From the NCBI RefSeq assembly GCF_029714365.1, contig NZ_CP121660.1, positions 1,736,001 to 1,800,000 on the forward strand: a stretch of 64,000 nt of DNA, in the 5' to 3' direction. The DNA comes from Sinorhizobium terangae (GTDB lineage Bacteria; Pseudomonadota; Alphaproteobacteria; Rhizobiales; Rhizobiaceae). Position numbers and translations under genes: made by a program. The notes under the pieces are model-generated. The model saw only the letters and a program-made list of their open reading frames with translations, was not told the origin of the DNA and searched no databases. Position 1 is the stretch's first letter. Every line of letters starts with the position of its first letter. Shown here in pieces: positions 48,956 through 64,000 of the stretch.

Positions 48956-50104
48956 TCACCATTCGGCGACGCTGCCATCCTCGTGGCGCCAGACCGGATT
49001 GCGCCAGCGATGGCCTTCACGCGCACGCTCGATGACATAGGCCTCGTCGACCTCGACACCGAGGCCGGGCCCCTGCGGGATCGACACGAAGCCATCCTGG
49101 TAGCGGAACACCTCCTTGTTGGAGATGTAATCGAGGATGTCGTTGCCAGCATTGTAATGGATGCCGAGGCTCTGCTCCTGGATGAAGGCGTTGTAGCTGA
49201 CGGCATCGACCTGAAGGCAGGCAGCAAGCGCGATCGGCCCCAGCGGGCAATGCGGCGCGAGCGCCACGTCATAGGCTTCCGCCATCGCCGCGATCTTGCG
49301 GCACTCGGTGATGCCGCCCGCATGCGAAAGATCCGGCTGGATGATGTCGACATAGCCATCGGCCAGGACAGACTTGAAGTCCCAGCGGGAATAGAGGCGC
49401 TCGCCCAGCGCAATCGGTGTCGACGAATGATTGGCGATCTCCTTCAGCGCTTCCCGGTTTTCCGACAGCACCGGCTCCTCGATGAACATCAGCTTGAACT
49501 GCTCGAGTTCCTTGGCTAGCACCTTGGCCATCGGCCGATGCACGCGACCATGGAAGTCGACGCCGATGCCGACATGCGGGCCGATCGCGTCGCGGATGGT
49601 GCCGATGGTCGAAACGGCCTTGTCGATCTTCTCGTTGCTGTCGACGATCTGCAGTTCTTCGCAGCCGTTGAGCTTGATCGCCTTGAAGCCGCGGGCGACG
49701 ACGTCCCTGGCATTGCGCGCAACGTCGCTCGGCCGATCGCCGCCGATCCAGGAATAGACCTTGATCCTGTCGCGGCATTGGCCGCCGAGCAACTGGTGGA
49801 TCGGCTGGCCGAGAGCCTTGCCCTTGATGTCCCATAGCGCCTGATCGATGCCGGCAAGAGCGCTCATGTGCAACGCGCCGCCGCGATAGAAGCCACCGCG
49901 ATACATCACGTTCCAGTGGTCCTCGATCAGGAACGGATCCTTGCCGACAAGATAGTCGGCGAGTTCGTGCACCGCCGCCTCGACGGTCAGCGCGCGGCCT
50001 TCAACCACCGGCTCGCCCCAGCCGACAATGCCCTCGTCGGTTTCGATCTTGAGGAACAGCCAGCGCGGCGGAACAATATGGGTGGTGAGCTTGGTAATCT
50101 TCAT
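48956..50104 (-). CDS. dgoD: D-galactonate dehydratase (enolase superfamily)
   Basis: A 382-residue mandelate-racemase-family enzyme, the length of E. coli DgoD, and very like it: the metal and base motif [12 protein letters not shown] with Asp about 183 and His about 185, the second metal ligand FIEEPVLSE, and [20 protein letters not shown] with the late catalytic His. It removes water from D-galactonate to give 2-keto-3-deoxygalactonate in the De Ley-Doudoroff route. ATG 50104. It is cotranscribed with the SDR gene downstream and lies next to a FadR-type regulator and an AraFGH-like importer. Genes for the later kinase and aldolase (dgoK/dgoA) are not in this window. Confidence 0.9.
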
Positions 50105-50161
50105 GACGTGATGTCCATTGGAGGAAAGGCAAACGGGCGGGCTGCCCGTTTCAGGGGTTGT

Positions 50162-50929
50162 TCAGGGGGCGGCGCCTGAGGATCGGTGCCGTTTGACGGC
50201 CGCGGCGAGATCGCGCGCCGCAAGATCCAGCATGCGCATCGAGCAGTCGCGCGCGCCCACCTTGTCGCGCATGCGCAACGCCTCCACGAGTTCGCCATGT
50301 ATGTCGATCGCCTCGTCCCGGCGTTCGGCGGCCTCGTTCGAAGCGTGCAGCGCGAACTTGAGCGCCGTCTGGATGATGCCGACGAGTTGCAGGAAGACCT
50401 GGTTGTGGCTCGCCTTCAGAAGGCAGGTGTGAAACGCGACGTCGGCCTCGGTGAAGCCCGCGACGTCGCGCTCGCCGTCACGCATGCCCCGCCAGGCGCG
50501 TTCGAGATCGGCGATTTCCTGTACCGTCGCGCGCTCGGCGGCGAATTCGGCCGCCGCTGGCTCGATCGCCCGGCGCGCCTCCAGGATGCAGTTCAGCAGA
50601 TCGAATTCGAAGATGCGCTCGCCGATCCATTCAAGAACTTGCGAATCGAGAATGTTCCACTCTTCCTTGTTGCAGACGACCGTGCCGACGCGGGAGCGGC
50701 CGCGCACCATGCCTTTCGATTCGAGGATCTTCAGCGATTCGCGGATCACGGTGCGGCTGACGCCATAGCGCTCGCACAGATCGTTTTCGCGAGGCAGGAA
50801 CGTGCCGACAGGAAAGATCTCGGCGCAGATGTCGGAGGCAATGGCGCGCGTGATGTTCTTCTGGACGCGCGGACGGCGTTGCAGCCGTTCTGCCACAATA
50901 CCCTGGTGCTCCTGCCCTTCCGCTGCCAT
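50162..50929 (-). CDS. FadR-subfamily GntR regulator (DgoR-like)
   Basis: A 255-residue regulator. The N-terminal winged helix ends in YGVSRTVIRESLKILESKG and LPRENDLCERYGVSRTV, and the all-helical FCD ligand domain follows (LLNCILEARRAIEPAAAEFA with metal/ligand Asp and His; ADVAFHTCLLKASHNQVFLQ). ATG 50929 has GTGAGG at best spacing. It lies first in the minus-strand unit and divergent from the importer. The region between carries FadR-like dyads (51031-51076). It probably represses both units until galactonate or a related sugar acid binds. Function by position and family; the ligand is inferred. Confidence 0.88.
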   Translation of the reverse strand: MAAEGQEHQGIVAERLQRRPRVQKNITRAIASDICAEIFPVGTFLPRENDLCERYGVSRTVIRESLKILESKGMVRGRSRVGTVVCNKEEWNILDSQVLEWIGERIFEFDLLNCILEARRAIEPAAAEFAAERATVQEIADLERAWRGMRDGERDVAGFTEADVAFHTCLLKASHNQVFLQLVGIIQTALKFALHASNEAAERRDEAIDIHGELVEALRMRDKVGARDCSMRMLDLAARDLAAAVKRHRSSGAAP

Positions 50930-51030
50930 CGCCATCCTCACGCTGATCAAATCGATGCTCCATAGCGCAGATCGCCGCAGCCGGCGACAGCGCGCCGAAG
51001 CACGCGTTTATAGTCATACATCACTATCTC

Positions 51031-51076
51031 ATTCATCATACAAAGGCAATTGACGAATATGATGATTCATCATACA
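51031..51076. promoter_or_regulatory. Candidate FadR-type operators of the arabinose/galactose divergon
   Basis: A near-palindrome ATGATGATTCATCAT lies at 51059-51073. ATTCATCATACA occurs twice as a direct repeat (51031 and 51065, 34 bp apart). Both lie between the regulator and the araF-like gene, close upstream of the latter. Confidence 0.5.
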
Positions 51077-51118
51077 CAAATGCCAACTGCAGGAGGCAGT
51101 TCACCAGGGAGACACATC

Positions 51119-52102
51119 ATGCGCTTCATCAAGGCAGCCATTCTGGCTGGTACCGTCGCCGTATTCGCCGCCACTTCGGCATTGGCCGCCGACGTCAAGA
51201 TCGGCTTCATCGTCAAACAGCCCGAGGAGCCGTGGTTCCAGGACGAATGGAAATTCGCGGACGCCGCCGCCAAGGAAAAAGGCTTCACGCTGGTCAAGAT
51301 TGGTGCAGAAGACGGCGAGAAGGTTCAGTCGGCCATCGACAATCTCGGGGCCCAGGGCGCACAGGGCTTCATCGTCTGCACGCCTGACGTCAAGCTCGGC
51401 CCGGGCATCGTCGCGAAGGCTGCCGCCAACGATCTCAAGCTGATGACTGTCGACGACCGCCTGGTCAACGCCGACGGCACCCCGATCGAAGACGTTCCGC
51501 ACATGGGGATTTCGGCCACCAAGATCGGCGAGGCCGTCGGCCAGGCGATCGTGGACGAGATCAAGAAGCGCGGCTGGGACATGAAGGAGGTTGGCGCGAT
51601 CCGTGTCTCCTACGACCAGTTGCCGACCGCGGTCGACCGCGTCGAAGGCGCCCTTTCCGTTCTCAAGGCCAACGGCTTCCCTGAAGCCAACATCTTCGAC
51701 GCGCCGCAGGCAAAGACCGATACCGAAGCCGCCCTCAACGCCTCGACGATCGTGCTCAACAAGAACGCCGGCATCAAGAAATGGGTCGCTGTCGGTCTCA
51801 ATGACGAAGCGGTACTCGGCGCCGTGCGCGCAACCGAAAGCGTGGGTATTGCCGCCGACAGCGTGATCGGCGTCGGTATCGGCGGCGCGGAGTCGGCGAT
51901 CAACGAATTCAAGAAGCCGGCTGCGACCGGCTTCTTCGGCACCGTCATCATCTCGCCGAAGCGGCACGGCTACGAAACCGCGCTCAACATGTACGACTGG
52001 ATTGCCAACGACAAAGAGCCGGAGAAGCTGATCCTGACCGCCGGCCAGCTGGCGCTCCGCGACAACTACGAAGCCGTCCGCAAGGAACTCGGTATCGAGT
52101 AA
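51119..52102 (+). CDS. araF: Arabinose/galactose-type ABC transporter, periplasmic binding protein (AraF-like)
   Basis: A 327-residue secreted binding protein with signal peptide (AAILAGTVAVFAATSALAAD). It follows E. coli AraF in IGFIVKQPEEPWFQDEWKFA, GFIVCTPDVKLGPGIVAKAA, the hinge segment and WVAVGLNDEAVLGAVRATE. It binds L-arabinose or D-galactose. ATG 51119 (MRFIKAA) follows GGGAGACAC. In S. meliloti equivalent genes are named araABC (recall). A stable hairpin separates it from the ATPase gene, which suggests higher expression of the binding protein. Paired with galactonate dehydratase, galactose is at least as likely a substrate as arabinose. Confidence 0.88.
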   Translation: MRFIKAAILAGTVAVFAATSALAADVKIGFIVKQPEEPWFQDEWKFADAAAKEKGFTLVKIGAEDGEKVQSAIDNLGAQGAQGFIVCTPDVKLGPGIVAKAAANDLKLMTVDDRLVNADGTPIEDVPHMGISATKIGEAVGQAIVDEIKKRGWDMKEVGAIRVSYDQLPTAVDRVEGALSVLKANGFPEANIFDAPQAKTDTEAALNASTIVLNKNAGIKKWVAVGLNDEAVLGAVRATESVGIAADSVIGVGIGGAESAINEFKKPAATGFFGTVIISPKRHGYETALNMYDWIANDKEPEKLILTAGQLALRDNYEAVRKELGIE

Positions 52103-52124
52103 TCGTCTCTGACGACGACATCGA

Positions 52125-52149
52125 GCCCGGCGGCCTTCATCCGCCGGGC
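52125..52149 (+). terminator. Intra-operon hairpin between binding protein and ATPase
   Basis: Perfect arms GCCCGGCGG / CCGCCGGGC with a 7-base loop and no long T-run. Probably a 3' stabiliser of the binding-protein mRNA and not a full terminator. Confidence 0.6.
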
Positions 52150-52169
52150 AATTCTCTTCGGAGCAGCGC

Positions 52170-53696
52170 ATGCAAGATTTCCTCGAATTCCGGTCGATTT
52201 CGAAAGGCTACCCCGGCGTCCAGGCGCTATCGAATGTCTCCTTTGCTGTCCGCAAGGGCGCCGTTCACGGGCTCATGGGCGAGAACGGCGCCGGCAAGTC
52301 GACGCTGATCCGCGTTCTGTCCGGCGATCAATCGGCCGATGAGGGCGAGATCCGCATCGATGGCGAGGTTCAGCAGTATCGCTCCGTGCGCGACGCCTTC
52401 CATGCCGGCGTCATCGTCATTCACCAGGAACTGCAGCTCGTGCCGGAGCTGACGGTTGCCGAAAACCTTTGGCTCGGCCATTTCCCCGGCAAAGGCGGTG
52501 TGATCGACCGCCGCAAACTCGTCGGCGTCGTCTCTGAAAAGCTGGCCGAGATCGGCATCGATGTCGACCCAGCCGCCAAGGTTGCGTCGCTTTCGATCGG
52601 CGAGCGCCAGATGGTCGAGATCGCCAAGGCGGTGATGCTTGACGCGCGCGTGATCGCTCTCGACGAGCCGACCTCCTCGCTGTCCTCGCGCGAGAGCGAA
52701 ATCCTCTTTGCTCTCATCGATCGCCTGCGCGCGAACGGCACCGTCATTCTCTACGTCTCGCATCGCCTCGACGAGATCTTCCGGCTTTGCGACAGCCTCA
52801 CGGTGCTGCGCGACGGCAAGCTCGCCGCCCATCATCAGGAGATTTCCAGGGTTACGCGCGACCAGATCATTTCCGAGATGGTCGGGCGCGAGATCGCAAA
52901 TATCTGGGGCTGGCGGGGGCGCAGCTTCGGCGCCGAACGGCTGCGGGTCGAAAGTATTGCAGGGCCAAAACTGAAGATCCCGTTGAGCTTCTCCGTCAGG
53001 CGCGGCGAGATCGTCGGCTTCTTCGGCCTGATTGGTGCCGGCCGCAGCGAGATGGCGCGGCTCATCTATGGAGCCGATGCGCGCAGCCAGGGCGACGTGT
53101 CGGTCGACGGCGCAATCGTGCCGGCAGACAGCCCGCCGAAGTCGATCCGGGCCGGCATCGTCCTCTGCCCGGAGGACCGCAAGTTCGATGGCATCGTTCA
53201 GGGCCGGTCGATCGAAGAGAACATGACGATCTCCTCGCGCCGCCACTTTTCTCGCCTCGGCATCATCAATCCGAAGAAGGAAAGCGAACTCGCCGACAAA
53301 TTCATCGCCAGGCTTCGCGTGCGAACACCGTCCCGCCGTCAGGACATCGTCAACCTCTCGGGCGGCAACCAGCAGAAGGTCATCCTCGGGCGCTGGCTGT
53401 CGGAGGAAGGCATCAAGGTTCTCATCGTCGACGAGCCGACGCGCGGCATCGACGTCGGCGCGAAATCCGAGATCTACGAAATCCTTTACGGGCTTGCCGA
53501 GCAGGGCATGGCGATCGTCGTCATCTCCAGCGAGCTACCGGAGGTGATGGGCATCGCGGACCGTATCATCGTGATGTGCGAGGGTCGGCTGGCGGCCGAC
53601 ATGCCGCGTGTGGAATTCGATGAGCGGCGGATCCTCGCGGCAGCCCTTCCCGACATCAAGAACAGCAAAGAGCTTCCCCTCACGCAGGTATGGTGA
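52170..53696 (+). CDS. araG: Arabinose/galactose-type ABC transporter, ATP-binding protein (AraG-like)
   Basis: A 508-residue duplicated ATPase close to AraG: Walker A GENGAGKS (about 37-44), [36 protein letters not shown], the AraG-like IANIWGWRGRSFG linker, second half [34 protein letters not shown]. It drives uptake through the AraH-like permease. ATG 52170. Its end overlaps the permease start by 7 bp, so translation is coupled. The AraG resemblance is stronger than to the other two CUT2 ATPases in this window, which supports the arabinose/galactose call. Confidence 0.9.
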   Translation: MQDFLEFRSISKGYPGVQALSNVSFAVRKGAVHGLMGENGAGKSTLIRVLSGDQSADEGEIRIDGEVQQYRSVRDAFHAGVIVIHQELQLVPELTVAENLWLGHFPGKGGVIDRRKLVGVVSEKLAEIGIDVDPAAKVASLSIGERQMVEIAKAVMLDARVIALDEPTSSLSSRESEILFALIDRLRANGTVILYVSHRLDEIFRLCDSLTVLRDGKLAAHHQEISRVTRDQIISEMVGREIANIWGWRGRSFGAERLRVESIAGPKLKIPLSFSVRRGEIVGFFGLIGAGRSEMARLIYGADARSQGDVSVDGAIVPADSPPKSIRAGIVLCPEDRKFDGIVQGRSIEENMTISSRRHFSRLGIINPKKESELADKFIARLRVRTPSRRQDIVNLSGGNQQKVILGRWLSEEGIKVLIVDEPTRGIDVGAKSEIYEILYGLAEQGMAIVVISSELPEVMGIADRIIVMCEGRLAADMPRVEFDERRILAAALPDIKNSKELPLTQVW

Positions 53697-54649
53697 CGAT
53701 GACCCATCTGAAAAAAATTCTTCTCGGCGAACAGGGCCTCGTCGTCATCTTCGCAGTCGCCTTCGTCATCGTGTCGATGACGGTTCCGAATTTCTTGAGC
53801 GAGCGCAATATGCTCGGCCTGCTGCAGTCGGTCGTCACGATCGGCATTATCGCCTGCACGATGATGTTCTGCCTCGCCTCGCGCGATTTCGACCTTTCAG
53901 TCGGCTCGACGGTGGCATTTTCCGGCATGGTGGCGGTCATGGCCTCGAACGCCTCGGGCTCGATCCTGCTCGGGCTGCTGGCTGCCGTCATTTGCGGCGC
54001 GGTCGTCGGCACCATCAACGGCGTCGTCATCGCTCGTTTCCGCATCAATGCGCTGATCACAACGCTTGCGACCATGCAGATCGTCCGCGGTTTCGCGCTG
54101 ATCGCCTCGGATGGTCGCGCCGTCGGCATCAACGATCCCGGCTTTTATCAGCTCGCGTTGTCGCGCTTTCTCGGCGTCCCGACACCGATCTGGGTGATGG
54201 GCCTGTTCTTCATCGTCTTCGGCTTTGTGTTGAACCGAACCGTCTTCGGCAAGAACACGCTGGCGATCGGCGGCAATCCGGAGGCTTCGCGTCTTGCGGG
54301 CGTCGACGTCGCCCGCATGCGCGTCTGGATCTTCGCGCTGCAAGGCATCGTCTGCGCCGTCGCAGGCGTGCTGCTTGCCTCGCGCATCACCTCCGGTCAG
54401 CCCAATGCCGCGACGGGACTCGAGCTTTCGGTCATCTCGGCCTGCGTGCTCGGCGGCGTATCGCTTGCCGGCGGCCGCGCGGCGATGACTGGCGTCATCG
54501 TCGGCGTTTTGATCATGGGCATCGCCGAGAATGTCATGAACCTGCTCAACATCCAGGCCTTTTATCAGTACGTGGTGCGCGGCCTGATCCTGTTGCTGGC
54601 GGTGCTGCTCGACAATCTGCGCTCGGTCGCGGGCCGACAGCGCGTCTGA
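53690..54649 (+). CDS. araH: Arabinose/galactose-type ABC transporter, permease (AraH-like)
   Basis: A 319-residue CUT2 permease: ASRDFDLSVGSTVAFSGMVA, FRINALITTLATMQIVRGFA and VISACVLGGVSLAGGRAAMT near the C-terminus, followed by a last helix. About ten membrane segments. Start ATG 53690 overlaps the ATPase stop by 7 bp; ATG 53699 (MTHLKK) is an alternative. Followed after 6 bp by an aldose epimerase gene in the same operon. Forms the membrane channel for arabinose or galactose. Confidence 0.9.
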   Translation: MVTMTHLKKILLGEQGLVVIFAVAFVIVSMTVPNFLSERNMLGLLQSVVTIGIIACTMMFCLASRDFDLSVGSTVAFSGMVAVMASNASGSILLGLLAAVICGAVVGTINGVVIARFRINALITTLATMQIVRGFALIASDGRAVGINDPGFYQLALSRFLGVPTPIWVMGLFFIVFGFVLNRTVFGKNTLAIGGNPEASRLAGVDVARMRVWIFALQGIVCAVAGVLLASRITSGQPNAATGLELSVISACVLGGVSLAGGRAAMTGVIVGVLIMGIAENVMNLLNIQAFYQYVVRGLILLLAVLLDNLRSVAGRQRV

Positions 54650-54655
54650 CCGGCA

Positions 54656-55549
54656 ATGTCAAACGATGTCCTGCACCTTAAGAACAACGAGCTCTCGGTC
54701 GAACTGAGCCGTTTCGGCGGCTCGCTCCTCGCTGCCACCTGGCGCGGCATCCCGTTCCTGAAGCCGACTGCGACCGCCGGGATCGCGACGCAGCGCTTCG
54801 GCGCCGAAGCGAGCTTCCCGCTCGTCCCCTTCGGCAACAGGATCGAAGGCAACAGCTTCACCTTCGAGGGGGAGCGCTTCACCCTCGAGCCGAATACATC
54901 GGGCGATCCATTCTGCCTGCATGGGGATGGATGGCTCAGCGAGTGGGAGCTGAAGTCGCACAGCGGGGAACGGGCGACCCTTTCCTATGTGCACGCCGAG
55001 CGGGCGGGAAGCCCCTATGCCTACGAGGCCGTGCAGGATGTGCGGCTGGAAGGCAGCACGCTGCTTCTCTCCCTGGCCGTCACGAACACGTCGACTCGTC
55101 TGTTACCCTTTGGATTGGGGCATCATCCCTACTTTCCACGCACGGCCGGGACCCGGCTCAGAGCGAGGGCGAAACGCATCTGGGGTGAGAGGGCTGGACA
55201 TCTGCCCGACGCTCCCGGCGCGATTCTCCGAATGGTCGATTTCGCCGAGGGCAACAGGCTCCCCGCTCGCTGGATGAACAATGCCTATGACGGCTGGGAC
55301 GGAGAGGCTGCAATCGAATGGCCCGAACGTCAGCTTGCCTTAAGGCTTGAGGCCGAGGGTTCGTTCGAGTGCTTCATGATCTACTCACCGGGTGCGGATG
55401 CGGACTTCTTCTGTTTCGAGCCGATGACGCATCTGCCCAATGCTCACAACATGCCGAACGAAGCCGGCGGCCTCGTTGCGTTGAAGCCCGGTAAGAGCCT
55501 TGCAGGCACGATCAGGTTCCGTCTGGCGCCATTGAGCCCAGGCTTTTAA
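54656..55549 (+). CDS. Aldose 1-epimerase (GalM-like)
   Basis: A 297-residue galactose-mutarotase-superfamily protein. ASFPLVPFGNRIEGNSFTFE is the beta-sandwich N-terminal region with the conserved FGNR, FCLHGDGWLSEWEL includes the first catalytic His, GLGHHPYFPRTAGT the second, and CFEPMTHLPNAHNMP the catalytic Glu. It interconverts alpha- and beta-anomers of the imported aldose for the pyranose dehydrogenase. It is the last gene of the AraFGH-like operon, 6 bp from the permease. The enzyme fits a galactose/arabinose pathway that oxidises free sugar. Confidence 0.9.
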   Translation: MSNDVLHLKNNELSVELSRFGGSLLAATWRGIPFLKPTATAGIATQRFGAEASFPLVPFGNRIEGNSFTFEGERFTLEPNTSGDPFCLHGDGWLSEWELKSHSGERATLSYVHAERAGSPYAYEAVQDVRLEGSTLLLSLAVTNTSTRLLPFGLGHHPYFPRTAGTRLRARAKRIWGERAGHLPDAPGAILRMVDFAEGNRLPARWMNNAYDGWDGEAAIEWPERQLALRLEAEGSFECFMIYSPGADADFFCFEPMTHLPNAHNMPNEAGGLVALKPGKSLAGTIRFRLAPLSPGF

Positions 55550-56141: not shown

Positions 56142-57449
56142 TCACCGCCGACCGGCAGAGGCGGAGATTTGCGCCGCCGACCGGGGAACGGAGCCGATCT
56201 CGTCCTCGAAAAGCTCGGGCATCAGATCGGCAAGCCGGACCAGCTTGCCCGTGCGCGAGCTCTGGAGTGCCGCGATGCCGCAGAGGACCGACATCGCCCC
56301 GGCGCGCGCGCCTGCCCGCTGCCCCAACGGGTCCGTCGCGCCCGGCTTGAAAAGCATGTTCCGCAGGCGGTCGTCGCCACCGTAGTGGCCACCGGAAGAA
56401 TGGGGCACGGCGATGCGCTCGACTCCCGGGCGCCCTTTCGGGAAATTGCGGACAAGCAGAATGACGTCTTCCTCCGGCATCTCCCATGGCTGGTCCTCGT
56501 GCTGTCGAAGTTCGATTCTGCCCTTCGTTCCATTGAAGGCGACGTGGTGCCCCTCGATCGGCTGGAAGGTGTTCAGCGAATAGGAGACGTGGACATTGTT
56601 GCGGTAGCGTATGTTCGCGACCATCGTGTCGGGAATATCGATGTCCTCGCGGAAGACGCAGCCGTCGCGGAAATAGCCGTCGATCTCGGAGGGGTCCTCG
56701 TAGAGCGCGTCGAGGAACGGATCGGCTTCCAGATCCAGGTAGAAGTCGCATTCATTCTTATGGGGACAGAGCTTGCAGCGCGGCGCGCGGAAGGGACCCT
56801 TGCGCCCGTACATCTGCAGGTCGGCGAAGGCCGTGACGGCATCCGGATCACTGTCGAGATACCAGTTCAACAGATCGAAATGATGGGTCGCCTTGTGCAC
56901 GAATAGGCTGCCGGACTTTTCCGTATAAGCGTGCCAGCGGCGAAAATAGTCGGCGCCGTGTCTGGTATCGAGGTACCAATGAAAGTCGACGGAAGTCACC
57001 CGGCCGATTTCGCCCGAATTCAACAGTTCCTTGATGCGCGCCGCAGTCGGCGCAAAGCGGTAGTTGAAGGAGACGTCCACCCGCCGACCGGTGCGCTTCT
57101 CGGCGTCCAGAATGCGGCGGATCTTTTCGACGGTGGTTGACATCGGCTTTTCGGTGATGACATCGGCGCCGGCCTCAAGCGCGCGGACGACGATATCGTC
57201 ATGGGTGCTATCCGGTGTGCAGACGATCACGAGATCGGGCCGCGCTTCGGCAAGCATCATGTCGACATTGCCGTAGATGGGCGCATTGGTGGCAATCATC
57301 GTGCGGGCGCGTTCGGCTCTGAGCGCATTCGTGTCGGCTATGGCGATGAGATCCACCTGGCCGCGCCAACCGGCGAGCAGATCCTTGCCCCACATCGTGG
57401 TGCCGCGGTTGCCGGTTCCGACCAGCGCAAAACGACGTTTGTTATCCAT
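56142..57449 (-). CDS. Gfo/Idh/MocA-family oxidoreductase with cysteine cluster
   Basis: A 435-residue NAD(P)-dependent dehydrogenase. The N-terminal Rossmann fold is FALVGTGNRGTTMW, the catalytic Lys is in VITEKPMSTT (about residue 101), and HKATHHFDLLNWYL (about 186-199) is the substrate-binding motif. A metal-like cluster CKLCPHKNEC (C225-x2-C-x5-C234), with a further Cys in DGCVF, follows. This cluster occurs in some Gfo/Idh/MocA subfamilies and could bind zinc. The family oxidises sugars or cyclitols. ATG 57449 (MDNKRRFALV) is preferred over upstream TTG. It is the last gene in the five-gene minus-strand unit; the 166-bp gap before it holds a palindrome. Substrate unknown. Confidence 0.85.
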   Translation of the reverse strand: MDNKRRFALVGTGNRGTTMWGKDLLAGWRGQVDLIAIADTNALRAERARTMIATNAPIYGNVDMMLAEARPDLVIVCTPDSTHDDIVVRALEAGADVITEKPMSTTVEKIRRILDAEKRTGRRVDVSFNYRFAPTAARIKELLNSGEIGRVTSVDFHWYLDTRHGADYFRRWHAYTEKSGSLFVHKATHHFDLLNWYLDSDPDAVTAFADLQMYGRKGPFRAPRCKLCPHKNECDFYLDLEADPFLDALYEDPSEIDGYFRDGCVFREDIDIPDTMVANIRYRNNVHVSYSLNTFQPIEGHHVAFNGTKGRIELRQHEDQPWEMPEEDVILLVRNFPKGRPGVERIAVPHSSGGHYGGDDRLRNMLFKPGATDPLGQRAGARAGAMSVLCGIAALQSSRTGKLVRLADLMPELFEDEIGSVPRSAAQISASAGRR

Positions 57450-57509
57450 CTTCCTCACGCAATCCTGTCTGGAGTGAAGCCGCGCGACCGGCGGCAATGA
57501 CTATTACAA

Positions 57510-57530
57510 CATGTAAACTCACCATACATG
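57510..57530. promoter_or_regulatory. Inverted repeat upstream of the second Gfo/Idh/MocA gene
   Basis: CATGTA-N9-TACATG, perfect 6-base arms, in the gap between the TIM-barrel gene and the Gfo/Idh/MocA gene, 61 bp before the latter's start. It suggests separate control of the last gene. Confidence 0.4.
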
Positions 57531-57615
57531 CTAGTGGCTGAAATCCGCGAGCGTCAAGGTATTTCCCACCCGCTCTTGTCAACCACTTGTAAGAACCATG
57601 ATCGAGCAACCCATC

Positions 57616-58440
57616 TCAACAGCAGCTTCGATAGCGCTCCACGCAAATTGCGATCACCTCCTCGGCCGGCCGCTTCCACCAGTTCTCGGCCGAGAAGATT
57701 TCGACCTCCTGCGCCCCATAGAAGCCCGCTGCCTCGATCCGGCGCCGGATTCCCTTCAAATCGATGACGCCATCGCCCATCATGCCGCGATCCGTCAGCA
57801 TGTCCTTGGTCGGGACCAGCCAATCGCAGATGTGATGGGCGAGGATCGCCTTCATTTCACCCGCCCGCGCGATCTGGTTGGCGAGATCAGGGTCCCACCA
57901 GACATGATAGACGTCGATCGCGACGCCGACGCCGGGGCCGAGCGCCTCGCACATGTCGAGCGCCTGGCCGAGCGTGTTCACGCAGGCCCGGTCGGCGGCA
58001 TACATCGGATGCAGGGGCTCGATCGCAAGCGGCACGCTGGCAGCGCGCGCATGCCGCAGCACCGTGGCAATGCCGTCCTCGACCATCCGGCGGGCGGCAT
58101 CGATATTCTTCGAGCCTCCCGGCAGACCGCCGACGACCAGAACCAGGCAATCGGCACCGAGCGCCGCCGCCTCGTCGATCGCGCGCCTGTTGTCGTCGAT
58201 GGCCTTCTCGCGGCCCGCTGCGTCTGCCGCCGGGAAGAAACCGCCACGGCAGAGGCCGGTGAGCTTCAGCCCGTTGGACTTGACGATGCGGACCGCCTCA
58301 TCGAGCCCGACCGCCGCCACCTGATCCCGCCAGGGAGCGATCGCCGTGATGCCGTGTTTCAGGCAGAGGTCCACGGCCTCCGCAAAGCCGCATTGCTCGC
58401 GGATCGTCGCGAGATTGATGGAAAGCCCCTCGACCTGCAT
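57616..58440 (-). CDS. Sugar phosphate isomerase/epimerase-like TIM-barrel protein
   Basis: A 274-residue xylose-isomerase-like TIM-barrel protein (AP endonuclease family 2 fold). Conserved metal ligands are seen in LAIEPLHPMYAADRACVNTL, VGVAIDVYHVWWDPDL and the final YGAQEVEIFSAENWW. Family members isomerise or epimerise sugars, or dehydrate cyclitols (IolE/IolI). The start ATG 58440 has GGAGGAGG in front. It is 44 bp after the enolase-like gene in the operon. The reaction cannot be told from sequence alone; a keto-sugar epimerase, isomerase or dehydratase is inferred. Confidence 0.82.
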   Translation of the reverse strand: MQVEGLSINLATIREQCGFAEAVDLCLKHGITAIAPWRDQVAAVGLDEAVRIVKSNGLKLTGLCRGGFFPAADAAGREKAIDDNRRAIDEAAALGADCLVLVVGGLPGGSKNIDAARRMVEDGIATVLRHARAASVPLAIEPLHPMYAADRACVNTLGQALDMCEALGPGVGVAIDVYHVWWDPDLANQIARAGEMKAILAHHICDWLVPTKDMLTDRGMMGDGVIDLKGIRRRIEAAGFYGAQEVEIFSAENWWKRPAEEVIAICVERYRSCC

Positions 58441-58484
58441 GTTGTCCTCCTCCCACATTCGTTTTGTGCATTGGGCGAGATGCA

Positions 58485-59903
58485 CTAGCTCGCCGTCATC
58501 GACGTCCAGTCCGGCTCGACTGATGAGCCAAGGCCGATCGCTCTCAAGGCAGTTTCAAAAGTGAGCTCGCCCCCCTTGATGGCGAGCCGCGCCCGCCCGG
58601 ATGCCCCGTCGTAAAGATCGCCATGCGCGGCCAGATAGGACGCCTGCTCGCCCGCCGGGGCCTGCGCCATGCCGTCAACATAGTGGTGGCCGTTGCGTTC
58701 GACATGGCCGGCGCCGACAAGCGCCGCCAGAACGAGGTCCTGCTGGAGCGCCAGGCCCGATTGTGTCGTCAGGTCCTCGGCGGACATGAAATAGTGGGAA
58801 GCACCCGTCTCGCGGTTCCATTTCTCGACGCGCGCGCGGTTGATCAGAGCCCGGTAGAAACCCTTGCAGGATTTCGAGGAGATGCCGGCATAGCCGAGTT
58901 CGCGGGCGCGCGGAAAGGCGCCGACATCGCCGTCGGACTCGTCGATTTCGAGCGCCATGCGCTGCGCGAGACTCGCGACCGATTTCGACAGCGCCTCAGC
59001 ACGCGCGATCGGCTGTTCGAAGAAGAGAATGGACCGGCGCAGCCGCGCGAGGCGCGGCTCCTTCTGCAGGCGATCGAGAAGGTCGGCCGCCGCATCGGCG
59101 CTTTCGAACTGTTCGTTGCCATCGAGCGTCGCGCGATAGCCGTCAGTCATGCCATCGAGCACTGCGGCGATGGCTATCAGGCGCTCGAGGTCTTCGGTGG
59201 GGCGTCCGGAAACCTTGATCTTGAAATAACGGTGACCGTAGGCGGCAATCACCTCTTCAAGCGTCTGCGGCAGGCCGTCCTCGAGCCGCTGGTCCGGCGC
59301 GAGCTCGGCGGCCGTCAGCGCATCGGCGAGCCCGATCGTATGGCGTACGGCAAGCCGCGGCGAAGGCTCCAGCCTCGCGAAAAAGCCAGCGAAATCGAAG
59401 CCCGCAAGATCCGGTGCGGTGGCATCGGCGATGCCGAGCAGACCGTGCCGGACGGCGTCGGCGGCGCTCACGCCTTTCATTCGGCACAGCGCATCGATGA
59501 TGGCACGATCGATGAGCGCCAGCCCGTAAGACGCCACGAGCGGCGGGAGGCCTCGGCCCGCAGCCGCCCGGTGATGATCGGCCTCAGCGCGGGCATGCAG
59601 CCCGAAGGGCGTCGCCGCCCCCGTCGCCCGCAAGCCTTCGATCGCCAGATGCAGCGACGCGCGAAGTTGCGCAATGTTGTCATCCGGCGAAAGGGCGGGA
59701 TTCTTGTCGAACCATTTCGGCATCATCATCTCGGCCGACCAGCCGGTCGCCTCCTGGCCGCCTTCGTCCGCGATCTTCACCCGGACGAAGGCCTGCGGCG
59801 CGCTCTCGACGCGCGCCGCCCCGAACCGGAAGGGAAAGCGGAAGCCAACTTGCCGCTCGAAGATGTCCGCCTCTATGAGCCTGACGATGGGAGCCTCGGT
59901 CAT
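58485..59903 (-). CDS. Enolase-superfamily (mandelate racemase/muconate lactonising) enzyme
   Basis: A 472-residue enolase-superfamily protein, longer than the usual 360-400 residues. Metal ligands are Asp in TLDGNEQF (about 261), Glu in LFFEQPI (about 296) and Glu/Asp in LEIDESDGD (about 321), and acid/base Lys in YFKIKVSG (KxK, about 228-230) and SSKSCKGF. Such enzymes abstract a proton next to a carboxylate, most often as acid-sugar dehydratases. The start ATG 59903 (MTEAPIVRL) follows the DUF993 stop by 7 bp. A carboxylate substrate fits an upstream oxidation step in the same operon. Exact substrate unknown; it does not closely match DgoD in the same window. Confidence 0.85.
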   Translation of the reverse strand: MTEAPIVRLIEADIFERQVGFRFPFRFGAARVESAPQAFVRVKIADEGGQEATGWSAEMMMPKWFDKNPALSPDDNIAQLRASLHLAIEGLRATGAATPFGLHARAEADHHRAAAGRGLPPLVASYGLALIDRAIIDALCRMKGVSAADAVRHGLLGIADATAPDLAGFDFAGFFARLEPSPRLAVRHTIGLADALTAAELAPDQRLEDGLPQTLEEVIAAYGHRYFKIKVSGRPTEDLERLIAIAAVLDGMTDGYRATLDGNEQFESADAAADLLDRLQKEPRLARLRRSILFFEQPIARAEALSKSVASLAQRMALEIDESDGDVGAFPRARELGYAGISSKSCKGFYRALINRARVEKWNRETGASHYFMSAEDLTTQSGLALQQDLVLAALVGAGHVERNGHHYVDGMAQAPAGEQASYLAAHGDLYDGASGRARLAIKGGELTFETALRAIGLGSSVEPDWTSMTAS

Positions 59904-59910
59904 GGCGGCC

Positions 59911-61074
59911 TCAGTCGATGCCGTGGACGGCAAGAGCACGCCGCATGCGCGAGACCGCCAGTTCCGGATCGGCAAGGGCGCCGGCCCTGTCCGCCAGACG
60001 GAAGAGTTCGGCGATATGGGCAAGCGAGCGCGCGCTCTGTTGTCCGCCGATCATCACGAAATGATCCTGCAGGCCGTTCAGATAGGCGAGAAAGACGACG
60101 CCGGTCTTGTAGAAGCGCGTCGGTGCCTTGAAGATATGGCGCGACAGCGGCACAGTCGGCTCGAGCAGCTCAAAGAACTCCCCGTTCCGCCCCTCGCCGA
60201 GCGCCTCAAGGGCCGCCGACGCCACCGGCGCGATCGCATCGAAGATGCCGAGCAGCGCGTCGGAGTATCCTCTTTCATCGCCGGCGATGAGTTCGGCATA
60301 GTTGAAGTCGTCGCCGGTATACATGCGCACGCCTTTCGGAATCCGGCGCCGCATTGCGATTTCTTTTTCCTTAGAGAGGAGCGATATCTTGATCCCGTCG
60401 ACCTTCTCGGCATGCGCCTCGATGACCGCAAGTGAGGTCTTCATCGCCTCCATGTGGTCGCCGTTGCCCCAATAGCCTTCGAGTGCCGGGTCGAACATCT
60501 CGCCGAGCCAATGGATGATCACCGGGTCCTTCACCTGCGAAAGGATGCGATCGTAGACGCGGATATAGTCTTCCGGCCCTTTCGCCGCTGCCGCGAGCGC
60601 CCGGCTCGCCATCAGGATGATCCGCCCACCTTCCGCTTCGATCGCTTCGATCTGGCTCTCATAGGCCTTGAGAATATCGTCGATCGAGACATCGGGGCCT
60701 GGCGCCAGGTGATCTGTGCCGGCACCGCAGGCGATCAGCGCGCCGGAGCGCCCGCGCGCCTCGGCAAGCGCACGGCGGATGAGCTCGCGCGCTTCCGGCC
60801 AACCGAGGCCCATGCCGCGCTGCGCCGTGTCCATCGCTTCGGCGACGCCAAGGCCCAGATCCCAGAGCCGGTGGCGGAAGGCGAGCGTGCGCTCCCAATC
60901 GATCGCCGGCGTCAGCCACGGATCATTGTCCGCGAGCGGGTCGGCGACGACGTGCGCCGCCGCAAAGGCAACTCTGGAAAACGCTGCCGCCTCGCGCTGC
61001 TTGAGCGGGACCGGCCGGCCCGTCAGTTCGTAACGGGCGAGCCGGCCTTCCCGGGGGAGATCGATGCTGACCAT
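59911..61074 (-). CDS. DUF993 (dihydrodipicolinate synthase-like) protein, probable aldolase
   Basis: A 387-residue DUF993-type protein of the DHDPS/NAL class I aldolase group. GALIACGAGTDHL replaces the usual pyruvate-carboxylate GTGE loop, and a Lys near residue 229 in VDGIKISLLSKEKE is the likely Schiff-base residue. The following MYTGDDFNYAEL and PTRFYKTGVVF regions are family-specific. It should cleave or add a keto acid through an enamine. ATG 61074 follows the Gfo/Idh/MocA gene by 3 bp, so it is translationally coupled. The substrate is inferred only from context. Confidence 0.82.
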   Translation of the reverse strand: MVSIDLPREGRLARYELTGRPVPLKQREAAAFSRVAFAAAHVVADPLADNDPWLTPAIDWERTLAFRHRLWDLGLGVAEAMDTAQRGMGLGWPEARELIRRALAEARGRSGALIACGAGTDHLAPGPDVSIDDILKAYESQIEAIEAEGGRIILMASRALAAAAKGPEDYIRVYDRILSQVKDPVIIHWLGEMFDPALEGYWGNGDHMEAMKTSLAVIEAHAEKVDGIKISLLSKEKEIAMRRRIPKGVRMYTGDDFNYAELIAGDERGYSDALLGIFDAIAPVASAALEALGEGRNGEFFELLEPTVPLSRHIFKAPTRFYKTGVVFLAYLNGLQDHFVMIGGQQSARSLAHIAELFRLADRAGALADPELAVSRMRRALAVHGID

Positions 61075-61077
61075 GGC

Positions 61078-62226
61078 TCAGAACTCCAATGCCGGGACAT
61101 CGAGCCAGCGGCGCTCGGCCCAGGATTTCAGCCCCAGCTCGGCAAGCTGCACGCCCTTGGCGCCGGCCTCCAGTCCGTAGGGCCAGGGGCTGTCGTCGGC
61201 AACATGGCGCAGGAACATTTCCCACTGCGCCTTGAAGCCGTTGTCGAAGACCTGCGTGTCCGGCACCTCGTCCCAGGTCTTGTAGAAATCGATGGTCTGC
61301 GGCTGATCCGGGTTCCAGACCGGCTTTGGTGTGTTGACGCGGTGTTGGGTCCAGCATTTCGTCAGCCCGGCAACGGCCGAGCCGTGCGTGCCGTCGACCT
61401 GGAAGGTCACGAGATCGTCGCGGCGCACCCGCACGGTCCAGGAGGAATTGATCTGCGCAATGATGCCGCCGTCGAGCTCGAAGGTCGCATAGGCCGCATC
61501 GTCCGTATCGCAGTCATAGGCCCGACCCTGCTCGTCGACGCGGCTTGGAATGTGGGTGGCGCCGAGGCAGGAGACGGCGCGCACTTCGCCGAAGAGGTTG
61601 TCCAGCACGTAGCGCCAGTGGCAGAGCATATCGAGAATGATGCCGCCGCCGTCGCCCTTGCGGTAATTCCATGAGGGACGCTGGGCAGGCACACCCCAAT
61701 CGCCTTCAAAGACCCAGTAACCGAATTCGCCACGCACCGAGAGGATCTTTCCGAAGAAGCCGGAGTCCCTAAGGAGAGCCAGCTTGCGAAGCCCGGGCAG
61801 GAACAGCTTGTCCTGGACGACACCGTGCTTGAGGCCGGAAGCGCGCGCCTTTCGCGCCAGCTTCACTGCCGTCCTGAGATCGTCGGAAATCGGCTTCTCA
61901 CAATAGACATGCTTGCCGGCGTCGAGCGCCCTGCCTATGAGCTCGGCGCGCATCAGCGTCGTACCGGCATCGAAAAAGATCTGGTCGTTCGGATCGGCAA
62001 GCGCGGCATCGAGATCGGTCGACCAGCGAGCGATGTTATGACGTTTCGCCAGTTGCTCCATCTTATCGCGGTTGCGGCCGACGATGATCGGGTCGATCTC
62101 CAGCCGTTCGCCGGACCTGAGCGTGATCCCGCCCTGATCGCGAATGGCCAGTATCGAGCGCACCAGGTGCTGGTTGTAGCCCATCCGGCCCGTGACGCCG
62201 TGCAATATGATCCCCAAACGTGGCAT
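61078..62226 (-). CDS. Gfo/Idh/MocA-family oxidoreductase (first gene of the operon)
   Basis: A 382-residue NAD(P)-dependent oxidoreductase. The Rossmann loop is LGIILHGVTGRMGYNQHLVR, the catalytic Lys is in YCEKPISDDLR, and DMLCHWRYVLDNLF holds the conserved substrate-facing His. It probably oxidises the imported sugar or cyclitol as the first step. ATG 62226; ribosome site GGAGGAGACC just upstream. It is directly downstream of a GTAAC-N6-GTTAC operator (62279) and divergent from the TetR-controlled importer, so it is the promoter-proximal gene of the five-gene unit. Confidence 0.88.
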   Translation of the reverse strand: MPRLGIILHGVTGRMGYNQHLVRSILAIRDQGGITLRSGERLEIDPIIVGRNRDKMEQLAKRHNIARWSTDLDAALADPNDQIFFDAGTTLMRAELIGRALDAGKHVYCEKPISDDLRTAVKLARKARASGLKHGVVQDKLFLPGLRKLALLRDSGFFGKILSVRGEFGYWVFEGDWGVPAQRPSWNYRKGDGGGIILDMLCHWRYVLDNLFGEVRAVSCLGATHIPSRVDEQGRAYDCDTDDAAYATFELDGGIIAQINSSWTVRVRRDDLVTFQVDGTHGSAVAGLTKCWTQHRVNTPKPVWNPDQPQTIDFYKTWDEVPDTQVFDNGFKAQWEMFLRHVADDSPWPYGLEAGAKGVQLAELGLKSWAERRWLDVPALEF

Positions 62227-62278
62227 GCGGTCTCCTCCCTGCCGGGCCTCGTGGGAGCGGACCAGCCCTCCCAAGCCA

Positions 62279-62294
62279 GTAACTAAACAGTTAC
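62279..62294. promoter_or_regulatory. TetR-type operator of the catabolic operon
   Basis: GTAACTAAACAGTTAC, with flanking AG/CT giving 6-base perfect arms AGTAAC/GTTACT. On the minus strand a TTGACA (62319-62324) lies just upstream, so the operator falls in or just after the -10 zone. The same site recurs at 63149. Confidence 0.7.
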
Positions 62295-62348
62295 TTTGTG
62301 GCAGACAAAAAGCGTACCTGTCAACAAAAAAAACGACATGTCGAAGAT

Positions 62349-63026
62349 TCAGCGCCTGATCGAAGCCAAAGTCACATGAACGATGTGGCGCTCCCAGCCC
62401 TCGAGATTGTCTCTTTCCGCGAGATCACGGCCGAAGATCGTTGAGAGCGTGTACTGGTTCGAGAGGTAGAAATAGCCGAGTGCGGCCATCGTCAGATAGA
62501 GGTGCAACGGGTCGACATCCTCCCGGAAGAGGCCCTTTGCCCTGCCTCGCTCGAGCAGGTCGGAAAGCTTGCCCATGAGTTGCGAATGCAGCTCCTTGAG
62601 CCGGGTCGATTGACGCAGCCAGCGGGCGCGATGAAGGTTCTCGGTGCCAAGCAAGCTCAGGAACTCCGGATGCTCAAGGAAGTATCTCCATGTGAACATC
62701 GCCAGCTCTGCGATGCCCTGCTCCGGCTCCAAGTAACTGAGATTGATCGATTTTTCCGCCGTTCTTATGCCGATATAGGCCTCTTCCAGGACCGCGAGAT
62801 AGAGCTGCTCCTTGTCGCCGAAATAATGATAGAGCATGCGCTTGTTGATGCCGGCGCGTTCGGCGATGGCATCGACGCGCGCGCCGCCCATGCCGTTCTC
62901 CGCGAACTCCTTGGTGGCGGCCGCGAGGATGGAGGCACGTGTCCGCTCGGGATCGCGCTGCGCGGAGCGCTCGGCACGCTCGCCGCTTCCATTCCTTCCT
63001 CTCGCGCCCGCCTGCCCCTTCTCCAT
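62349..63026 (-). CDS. TetR-family transcriptional regulator
   Basis: A 225-residue TetR repressor. The N-terminal helix-turn-helix reads SILAAATKEFAENGMGGARV DAIAERAGINKRMLYHYFGD (about residues 30-70, split for reading), the YHYFGDKEQLY stretch being the family signature. The C-terminal ligand and dimer domain is helical (FREDVDPLHLYLTMAALGYF). ATG 63026 is chosen because GGAGGTGA lies before it; ATG 63062 is the alternative. It sits between the catabolic operon and the importer gene and probably binds the two near-identical operators at 62279 and 63149. The ligand is unknown, presumably the sugar or its first product. Confidence 0.9.
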   Translation of the reverse strand: MEKGQAGARGRNGSGERAERSAQRDPERTRASILAAATKEFAENGMGGARVDAIAERAGINKRMLYHYFGDKEQLYLAVLEEAYIGIRTAEKSINLSYLEPEQGIAELAMFTWRYFLEHPEFLSLLGTENLHRARWLRQSTRLKELHSQLMGKLSDLLERGRAKGLFREDVDPLHLYLTMAALGYFYLSNQYTLSTIFGRDLAERDNLEGWERHIVHVTLASIRR

Positions 63027-63119
63027 CACATCACCTCCGGCACCTCTTGCCTTCGGCGGCATTCGATGCGAAATCGTAAAGATAATTTACAAGACAATGA
63101 CAGCATTTCACACAACTGC

Positions 63120-63164
63120 TTGACACGATCTTTGCTTGCCCCTAGTTTGTAACCAATTAGTTAT
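63120..63164 (+). promoter_or_regulatory. Promoter and TetR-type operator of the importer gene
   Basis: TTGACA (63120-63125), 17-bp spacer, TAGTTT (63143-63148), then at once GTAACCAATTAGTTAT (63149-63164), which matches the operator at 62279 in both half-sites. The repressor would cover the transcription start. The leader to the ATG at 63239 is about 80 bases. Confidence 0.7.
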
Positions 63165-63238
63165 TTAATGCAAGAGGACTCAACAAGACGACGATGACAC
63201 GGAGCGTTGTGGAGGCGCTCCCGAGGGAGGAGGAACAA

Positions 63239-64000
63239 ATGACGCATCGCATCAGCAGACGCAGTGTGCTTGCAGGAGGAGCAGCACTTCTTTCATATGC
63301 GGCCTTCGCGCCGCGCGCCTTTTCCGAGGAGGCGCGGCTGCGCTTGCTATGGTGGGGATCGCAGACCCGAGCCGACCGCACCAACAAGGTCAGCGAGCTT
63401 TTCAAGGCAGCCAATCCGGGGGTTTCCATCAACGGCGAATTCCTCGGCTGGAGCGACTACTGGCCGCGCCTTGCGACCCAGGTCGCAGGGGGCAACGCGC
63501 CCGACGTCATCCAGATGGATTACCGCTACATCGTCGAATATGCCCGACGCGGCGCGCTTGCGCCGCTCGACAGCTATCTCGGCTCGGTGCTCAAGGTCGA
63601 GGATTTCGACCAGGTGCAGATCAAGGGCGGCAGCGTCGACGGCAAGCTCTACGGCATCAGTCTCGGCGCCAATTCGACGGCGATGATGGTCAACACGGTC
63701 GCCTTCGAGGAAGCCGGCGTCGACCTGCCGACGCCAGCCACCACCTGGGACGAGCTCGCTCGCATGGGTATCGAGATCACCAAGGCCGGCAAGCGCAAGG
63801 GCTATTACGGCCTTTCGGACGGCAGCGGCGTGGAGCCGCTCCTCGAAAACTGGCTGCGCCAGCGCGGCAAGGCCCTCTTCACCGCGGACGGCAAGATCGC
63901 CTATGACGCGAATGACGGGGCCGAATGGTTTGCCATGTGGCAGAAGATGCGCGACGACAAGGCCTGCGTGCCGGCGGATATACAGGCGCTCGACCAGTTC
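63239..64000 (+). CDS. Extracellular sugar-binding protein, CUT1-type (3' truncated by window)
   Basis: The frame starts at ATG 63239, with a GGGAGGAGG ribosome site, and runs open to the window's right edge, 254 codons so far. The N-terminus RISRRSVLAGGAALLSYAAF is a twin-arginine-type signal peptide. The mature part starts EEARLRLLWWGSQTRADRTN, and PDVIQMDYRYIVEYARRGAL and DGKLYGISLGANSTAMMVNT are typical of family 1 binding proteins. The importer's permease genes should follow outside the window. It is probably repressed by the TetR regulator through the operator at 63149. Confidence 0.88.
   Translation, partial: MTHRISRRSVLAGGAALLSYAAFAPRAFSEEARLRLLWWGSQTRADRTNKVSELFKAANPGVSINGEFLGWSDYWPRLATQVAGGNAPDVIQMDYRYIVEYARRGALAPLDSYLGSVLKVEDFDQVQIKGGSVDGKLYGISLGANSTAMMVNTVAFEEAGVDLPTPATTWDELARMGIEITKAGKRKGYYGLSDGSGVEPLLENWLRQRGKALFTADGKIAYDANDGAEWFAMWQKMRDDKACVPADIQALDQF

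Follow-up and report, generated by a model that had tools for sequence, protein, structure and literature searches.

Near one end of a 64,000-nucleotide stretch of Sinorhizobium terangae DNA (NZ_CP121660.1:1736001-1800000, referred to here as the window; the genome comprises 6.63 Mb on 3 contigs) lie five adjacent enzyme genes, of which one encodes a DUF993 protein, and they raise two questions: do they form a fixed pathway, and what kind of compound would that pathway degrade? The other four genes encode two dehydrogenases of the Gfo/Idh/MocA family (GfoA and GfoB), a TIM-barrel protein (TIM) and an enolase-like enzyme, and the five are accompanied by genes for a TetR-family repressor and a CUT1 solute-binding protein (Table 1). 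An original prediction, made from the letters of the window alone, had taken the five enzymes as one set constituting a sugar or cyclitol catabolic pathway under TetR control. The seven genes that it listed, with their order, strands and spacing, are all borne out by the gene calls and by the gaps counted from ATG starts, which are 3 bp between GfoB and DUF993, 7 bp between DUF993 and the enolase-like gene and 44 bp between the latter and TIM; GfoA follows 166 bp after TIM. The families also agree with Pfam (two Gfo/Idh/MocA proteins, AP_endonuc_2, MR_MLE_C, DUF993, TetR and SBP_bac_1). Downstream of the window end we found the rest of the binding protein gene, two permease genes, two further Gfo/Idh/MocA genes (GfoC and GfoD) and a gene for a MalK-type ATPase. 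The cluster consists of two operons, with TetR and the five enzymes on one strand and a full CUT1 ATP-binding cassette (ABC) transporter together with GfoC and GfoD on the other. Sinorhizobium meliloti Ak57 has the identical twelve genes in the identical order.

The conserved unit within this cluster is GfoB-DUF993-TIM. This follows from a comparison of 158 DUF993 loci: 2 from the genome itself, 80 genome contigs (the best 80 of at least 579 DUF993 relatives, among which the GfoB type is over-represented), 16 plasmid records chosen from 60 of 146 matches, which provided the only coverage of Actinomycetota, and 60 stretches hand-picked from matches in family and phylum samples, 21 of which are of the GfoB type. 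Gene identities come from tblastn with a set of reference proteins (E 1e-8, coverage of 40% or more of the reference) and, apart from GfoB, without an identity threshold; a locus with a GfoB relative of more than 50% identity was called GfoB-type (group A), and 106 of the 158 loci are of this type. Unless indicated otherwise, the counts given below refer to these 106 loci, and absences are upper bounds because contig ends truncate some of the loci. In all 106 loci the first mapped gene upstream of DUF993 is GfoB, on the same strand, with a match gap of at most 371 bp, an arrangement that is far from chance. TIM is present in 103 loci, and 89 have a TetR relative. The enolase-like gene was found in 49 loci and GfoA in 31 (in one of these at 28% identity only), and therefore the five genes of the original prediction are one form of a three-gene core. 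Its conserved catabolic regulon stood; the fixed five-gene pathway had to be rejected, as the enolase-like gene and GfoA are optional. The prediction had also proposed to search gene neighbourhoods for DUF993 with an enolase-superfamily partner; in the GfoB-type loci the conserved partners are GfoB and TIM. As its gene is optional, the enolase-like step is probably dispensable for the core reaction.

The transporter genes are exchanged as well. A CUT1 binding protein is encoded in 41 loci, a permease of the tripartite tricarboxylate type (TctA) in 19 and an NMT1-type binding protein in 24, with identity below 31% in 4 of these, so that three unrelated transporter families surround one core. 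Less common companions are a second TIM protein (15 loci), genes of the SMP-30/gluconolactonase family (9 loci, two reference proteins taken together) and a succinate-semialdehyde-type (SSADH-type) dehydrogenase (4 loci). The GfoB-type loci span alphaproteobacterial families and plasmids of Actinomycetota (Embleya, Arthrobacter, where TIM is missing, and Glaciihabitans). A record titled Frankia sp. RB7 (L105) and an Acidobacteriales metagenome-assembled genome (L065) contain clusters like those of Bradyrhizobium and Alphaproteobacteria and are probably mislabelled or mis-binned.

TetR control, as originally predicted, came out stronger than had been claimed. The one block common to 30 of 30 intergenic stretches between the TetR and binding protein genes is the palindrome TAACYRNNYRGTTA. 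In the whole genome it is present at two places only, both in the cluster, one before each of the two sets of genes (Table 1). With one mismatch allowed, a related pattern matched the window at these 2 places only, where 0.01 matches were expected, and the 158 loci together contain 135 palindrome sites against 3 sites of the reversed control. Of 40 loci that encode a CUT1 binding protein, 36 have both sites; among the 106 GfoB-type loci, 73 have one site or more. A TTGACA-like hexamer is located 22-27 bp upstream of 95 of the 135 sites, with a peak at 24-25, compared with 99 of 3160 random positions; in the window the spacing is 25 bp at operator 1 (minus strand) and 24 bp at operator 2. A generic sigma-70 scan did not detect a full promoter at either window site, and on the transporter side TAGTTT makes a poor second hexamer. 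In this genome the conserved palindrome is confined to the two promoters of the cluster, as is expected of a local regulon. Judged from these sites, TetR control of the cluster is strongly supported, with the TetR protein as the presumed binder of the palindrome. This protein has the domain architecture of the RutR/TetR_C_29 repressors, and RutR is its best NCBIfam model (57.7 bits), but it misses the RutR cut-off of 368 and has its own palindrome and its own regulon.

A set of Bradyrhizobium-type loci (L097, L098, L100-L103, L105-L107, L109 and L187-L191) is without a strict palindrome. These loci carry an NMT1-type transporter, the enolase-like gene, GfoB, DUF993 and TIM and, where the contig reaches, most also carry TetR. 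Operator and repressor have apparently diverged there, or their pairing is different. Eleven loci contain, near the GfoB-DUF993 core, a family that we named DHDPS2, which has a weak match to PF00701 (L071, L073, L077, L080, L083, L090, L092, L110, L111, L147 and L192); a palindrome is located shortly upstream of the DHDPS2 gene in 6 of the 11 (L071, L073, L077, L080, L083 and L110). DHDPS2 was considered as a divergent DUF993 and rejected, profile comparison giving no match. Distant relatives, at 27-30% identity, of the DUF2264 protein encoded in the actinobacterial plasmid locus L138 are found near DUF993 in ten Rhizobium/Agrobacterium-type loci (L037-L039, L041, L043, L044, L047, L063, L166 and L206), mostly together with a 2-hydroxyacid dehydrogenase.

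DUF993 is not confined to this setting. The second DUF993 protein of the S. terangae genome (60% identity) is encoded beside LacI, Gfo, CoA-transferase, enoyl-CoA-hydratase and aldehyde-dehydrogenase genes, in a cluster that goes on with a CUT1 transporter, a GMC oxidoreductase, a probable FAD oxidoreductase (recognised by eye), an SDR protein and a glycerate kinase. By context, the loci other than the GfoB type are divided into those with LacI and CoA-transferase (group B, 30), those with GMC (group C, 12), those with acyl-CoA dehydrogenase and TIM (group D, 6) and others (4). On a tree of 95 non-redundant DUF993 proteins (from 156), with B and C treated as one label, the context label changes 7 times, against 32.4 times when labels are shuffled; context and clade go together. 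No label forms a single clade, and the deep actinobacterial order is unsure because four rows are long-branched, two of them joining. The palindrome is missing from 29 of the 30 B loci (the exception, L183, carries a TIM gene and is placed with D by the tree) and from all 12 C loci, and it is present in 5 of the 6 D loci (L131, L137, L139, L144 and L146, not L132), where it precedes CoA-transferase or acyl-CoA dehydrogenase genes. Plasmid pSymA of S. meliloti 1021 is among the D-type loci with a palindrome. The sites in the D loci indicate that another kind of DUF993 cluster uses this operator type as well.

What does DUF993 itself do? The protein is a full-length member of PF06187 (622.1 bits, cut-off 24, residues 5-386), and matches PDB entry 4dnh, which we take to be SMc04132, at 787 bits. 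Its closest named relatives are Sinorhizobium/Ensifer proteins, and the NCBI family name is 'dihydrodipicolinate synthase family protein', dihydrodipicolinate synthase being abbreviated DHDPS; searches gave no NCBIfam model match and no match to PF00701 (DHDPS) in Pfam. Residues K229, H188, D255 and D256 are invariant in 78 DUF993 sequences, and also in a set of 14 that includes the second subfamily. When DUF993 was compared with DapA by hhalign, a weak, collinear alignment of 197 columns was obtained (probability 0.8%, E 0.067; four DHDPS-family rows only), in which K229 falls on the lysine of GVKDATG in DapA and TGDD on SGED. With K229 invariant, DUF993 looks like a Schiff-base (class I) aldolase, but its match to DapA lacks significance.

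The partner enzymes keep the residues for which catalytic roles are expected in their families. In GfoB, E113-K114-P115, D202 and H206 are invariant in 75 sequences (numbering of the translated stretch), and the protein matches PDB 3oqb at 600 bits; the EKP motif of GfoA is conserved in 20 sequences. E142, D177, H180, H204 and E246 of TIM are invariant in 75 sequences (again numbered on the translated stretch, the ATG-started protein being one residue shorter). TIM is the orthologue of PDB 3ju2, 'uncharacterized protein SMc04130' (571 bits); 7vpf, of which the open-licence literature makes no mention, is a relative (265 bits), and IolI 1i60 a distant one (32 bits). The enolase-like protein belongs to the enolase superfamily by its PF13378 (MR_MLE_C) score of 32.6 bits, above the cut-off of 29.4, and its residues K230, K232, D263, E298, D323, E324, K346 and K349 are invariant in 34 sequences (numbering of the translated stretch, which is two residues longer than the ATG-started protein). 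The titles of 3oqb, 4dnh and 3ju2/3qc0, which represent the three core proteins or close relatives, give no specific function, and in the open-licence literature these PDB codes lead to an unrelated paper only. The nearest PDB entries to the binding protein are 4r6k and YesO 5z6b, at 203 bits each; they belong to the same sequence family, but a ligand is not transferable at such a distance, and there is no pectin enzyme among the Pfam matches of the cluster. Two identities of TIM were considered and not retained. Hydroxypyruvate isomerase was rejected, as NCBIfam gave IolO only, and weakly (28.5 bits). The alpha subunit of a C-glycoside deglycosidase, which needs a DUF6379 partner, was set aside, as no such partner was noticed, DUF6379 not having been searched for by model.

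We propose the following pathway. TetR, bound to the palindrome at both promoters, would keep both operons silent in the absence of an inducer, which is probably the substrate or one of its early metabolites. A sugar-like compound would enter through the ABC transporter, GfoB would oxidise it to a keto compound, TIM would isomerise, epimerise or dehydrate the latter, and retro-aldol cleavage of the product by DUF993, with Schiff-base (class I) chemistry, would follow. One or more three-carbon (C3) products would then leave via glycerate and glycerate kinase, and GfoA, GfoC, GfoD and the enolase-like enzyme may be side modules that fit particular substrates to the core. The gene set, its conservation, the positions of the palindrome and the conserved residues of catalytic type are direct observations; from them we infer every enzymatic step, the C3 exit and the sugar-like class of substrate. 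The exit is suggested by recurring glycerate kinase genes, which share the locus with DUF993 in 16 of the 158 cases (6 of 106 in group A, 1 of 30 in B, 5 of 12 in C and 4 of 6 in D), 2 of the 16 being the reference proteins themselves and the loci not being independent. The S. terangae genome encodes two glycerate kinases, one of them in the second DUF993 cluster, and with two in 6.63 Mb a 20 kb stretch would contain one by chance in about 1 of 165 cases. DUF993 may thus release a C3 unit that ends as glycerate, via hydroxypyruvate or glyceraldehyde, which is the least certain step.

Several observations weigh against this proposal. The mixed transporter types point to no single substrate, and of the 106 GfoB-type loci only 6 have a glycerate kinase gene nearby. 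The profile match between DUF993 and DapA (probability 0.8%, E 0.067) is not significant, and K229 is not singled out by its conservation because about a hundred DUF993 residues are invariant. A strict palindrome is lacking in 33 of the 106 loci, including the Bradyrhizobium type with its TetR relative. In the S. terangae genome the palindrome is not enriched, with a count of 2 against 3 for the reversed-pattern control; its weight therefore lies on position and conservation. Taking both sides together, we regard it as an even call whether the two operons form a dedicated catabolic regulon with the pathway as proposed. We put forward more tentatively, with doubt outweighing confidence, the wider view that DUF993 represents a new family of Schiff-base aldolases that cleave unphosphorylated sugars, served by at least three dehydrogenase sets, by TetR or LacI regulators and by a common glycerate exit, with the TetR form of the core being fed by three unrelated transporter families.

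Of the alternatives, the one that survives best, though we consider it unlikely, resembles the non-phosphorylative Entner-Doudoroff pathway, whose aldolase is a DHDPS-family enzyme. The sugar would be oxidised to an aldonate, the enolase-like enzyme would form a 2-keto-3-deoxy acid, DUF993 would split this into pyruvate and an aldehyde, and an aldehyde dehydrogenase and glycerate kinase would finish the route. The enolase-like gene (49/106), the SSADH-type dehydrogenase (4/106), the glycerate kinase (6/106) and the SMP-30/gluconolactonase-family genes (9/106) would all find a place in it. However, the enolase-like gene, the dehydratase candidate, was not found in 57 of the 106 loci (some cut by contig ends), and DUF993 is a separate Pfam family. 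In addition, we take the KxK...K pattern of the enolase-like protein to be nearer to the MLE subgroup, with its racemases and cycloisomerases, than to the acid-sugar dehydratases, and the protein matches no NCBIfam dehydratase model (0 families at E 0.001). According to the part of the paper available (PMC2063504), the T. tenax route has the same enzyme roles, with an aldolase acting on an unphosphorylated keto acid and a class II glycerate kinase as the exit, as in our proposal; the same source places ttuD3 on an Agrobacterium plasmid.

In levoglucosan catabolism, the enzymes that act after the dehydrogenase are isomerase-like TIM-barrel enzymes. A pathway of this type, in which oxidation at C3 of a glycoside or anhydrosugar by a Gfo protein would be followed by elimination and hydration by TIM proteins and by reduction by another Gfo protein, with DUF993 as a lyase or hydratase rather than an aldolase, appears improbable. 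GfoB and GfoA match the levoglucosan dehydrogenase model (LevoglcsnDh) at 60.4 and 67 bits, far under its cut-off of 650, and the additional Gfo and TIM genes that speak for such a scheme (several Gfo genes in the cluster, a second TIM gene in 15/106 loci) are optional, while it is the single GfoB and TIM that are kept beside DUF993. The described system (lgdA, lgdB1, lgdB2, lgdC) likewise has a dehydrogenase and then further enzymes in one sugar operon, but it ends in glucose, and the part of the paper available names four enzymes and no DUF993-type protein (PMC7676230).

We also think it improbable that the cluster degrades a small organic acid or a heterocycle instead of a sugar, with the rhizobial CUT1 transporter as a late addition. 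The tripartite tricarboxylate permeases (19/106) and NMT1-type binding proteins (24/106, of which 4 are under 31% identity) would fit this explanation, but a CUT1 binding protein is the partner in 41 of 106 loci, and in some of the 106 SMP-30 and glycerate kinase genes are nearby. Finally, a cyclitol route parallel to inositol catabolism, with GfoB acting like IolG, TIM like IolE, IolI or IolO, and DUF993 cleaving the opened ring, is hardly probable: GfoB (63.7 bits) and GfoA (95.5 bits) both have IolG as their best NCBIfam model, and TIM has IolO (5-keto-L-gluconate epimerase) as its sole one (28.5 bits) and IolI 1i60 as a distant relative, but the scores are far under the cut-offs (355 for IolG and 300 for IolO), and no inositol-enzyme product is found near DUF993 in the annotated records examined, IolB, IolC and IolD not having been searched for by model.

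Myo-inositol catabolism (iolG, iolE/I/O, iolJ) does have the order proposed here, with a dehydrogenase, a TIM-barrel isomerase or dehydratase and then an aldolase, but its aldolase family and its regulator differ from those of the cluster. With levoglucosan, inositol and the non-phosphorylative Entner-Doudoroff route as the nearest described logics, we class the cluster as a local regulon for sugar-type catabolism whose core enzyme is uncharacterised. The original prediction knew of no described pathway with DUF993 plus this gene set, and this agrees with the open-licence literature, in which no paper names DUF993 (or PF06187, pfam06187 or IPR009334), although subscription work could exist. 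Queries of that literature for the gene families in combination returned nothing, or levoglucosan papers and, by title, other matters. A Bacteroides table has the gene-family terms in separate rows and, in the part available, no joint locus of all three (PMC10434189).

Expression data are available for S. meliloti. The proteins SMc04132, SMc04133, SMc04135, SMc04138 and SMc04139 were found in TY medium and not detected in low phosphate, and a phbC phaR strain had less of the same five than phbC, according to the part of the study available (PMC12542648). The order of the tags, the name of 3ju2 and the gene order in Ak57 identify these five as orthologues of cluster genes. These data suggest that in S. 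meliloti the cluster is expressed in rich medium and that its proteins change together. SMc04134 is named in a computed network only, in the part available of another paper (PMC11387232). In the open-licence literature, the twelve tags from SMc04128 to SMc04140 other than SMc04139 occur in these two papers and in one on a P-type ATPase, which has SMc04128 (PMC4932525).

The region adjoining the cluster (48956-55549) is a separate and more ordinary sugar-acid locus, with a galactonate dehydratase (48956-50104, PRK14017, 724 bits) and an aldose 1-epimerase (Pfam) and, between them, what by eye are a GntR-type regulator and a ribose-type ABC transporter. The enolase-like protein of the cluster was rejected as a galactonate dehydratase: it has no NCBIfam match, and the true one is that of the adjoining locus. 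Beyond the ABC operon of the cluster, an SMP-30/gluconolactonase gene and a divergent DHDPS-like gene are located side by side (about contig positions 1809950-1810910, and L003:18906-19799), and the whole-genome pattern search showed no palindrome at this pair.

Table 1. Features of the DUF993 cluster (window positions unless a contig or locus is given) and of related loci.
Feature	Position	Strand	Description
GfoA	56142..57449	-	Gfo/Idh/MocA dehydrogenase, accessory; Pfam PF01408/PF02894
TIM	57616..58440	-	AP_endonuc_2 (xylose-isomerase-like) putative isomerase/epimerase/dehydratase, core; Pfam PF01261, 141 bits
Enolase-like gene (ENOL)	58485..59903	-	Enolase-superfamily enzyme, KxK...D...E...DE...K pattern, optional; Pfam PF13378, 32.6 bits
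DUF993	59911..61074	-	Proposed class I (Schiff-base) aldolase-like TIM barrel, core; PF06187
GfoB	61078..62226	-	Gfo/Idh/MocA dehydrogenase, core, first enzyme gene; Pfam
Candidate TetR operator 1, TAACTAAACAGTTA	62280..62293	.	Between TetR and GfoB, before the enzyme genes
TetR-family repressor	62349..63062	-	Pfam TetR_N, TetR_C_29; other possible ATG start at 63026
TTGACA, -35-like element of transporter operon	63120..63125	+	Read in the sequence; spacing statistics
Candidate TetR operator 2, TAACCAATTAGTTA	63150..63163	.	Transporter promoter, before the binding protein gene
CUT1 solute-binding protein	63239..64000	+	Pfam SBP_bac_1; ends outside the window, at contig position 1800525
Second DUF993 cluster	about G000:C1:3478600-3497600		LacI-type
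D-locus palindromes	L131 3131, 8041; L137 7027; L139 8032; L144 2217, 6945, 7050; L146 2133, 7041		

DUF993 is widespread, being present in 48 of 151 genomes sampled from the family and in 24 of 299 sampled from the phylum (the S. terangae genome counted in both), and its structure has been solved, yet it has remained without a paper that names it in the open-licence literature. The analysis provides a core, a palindrome and a two-promoter regulon, each of them defined, in a genus amenable to genetic work, and because these three are now in hand, the question of the substrate is directly testable.

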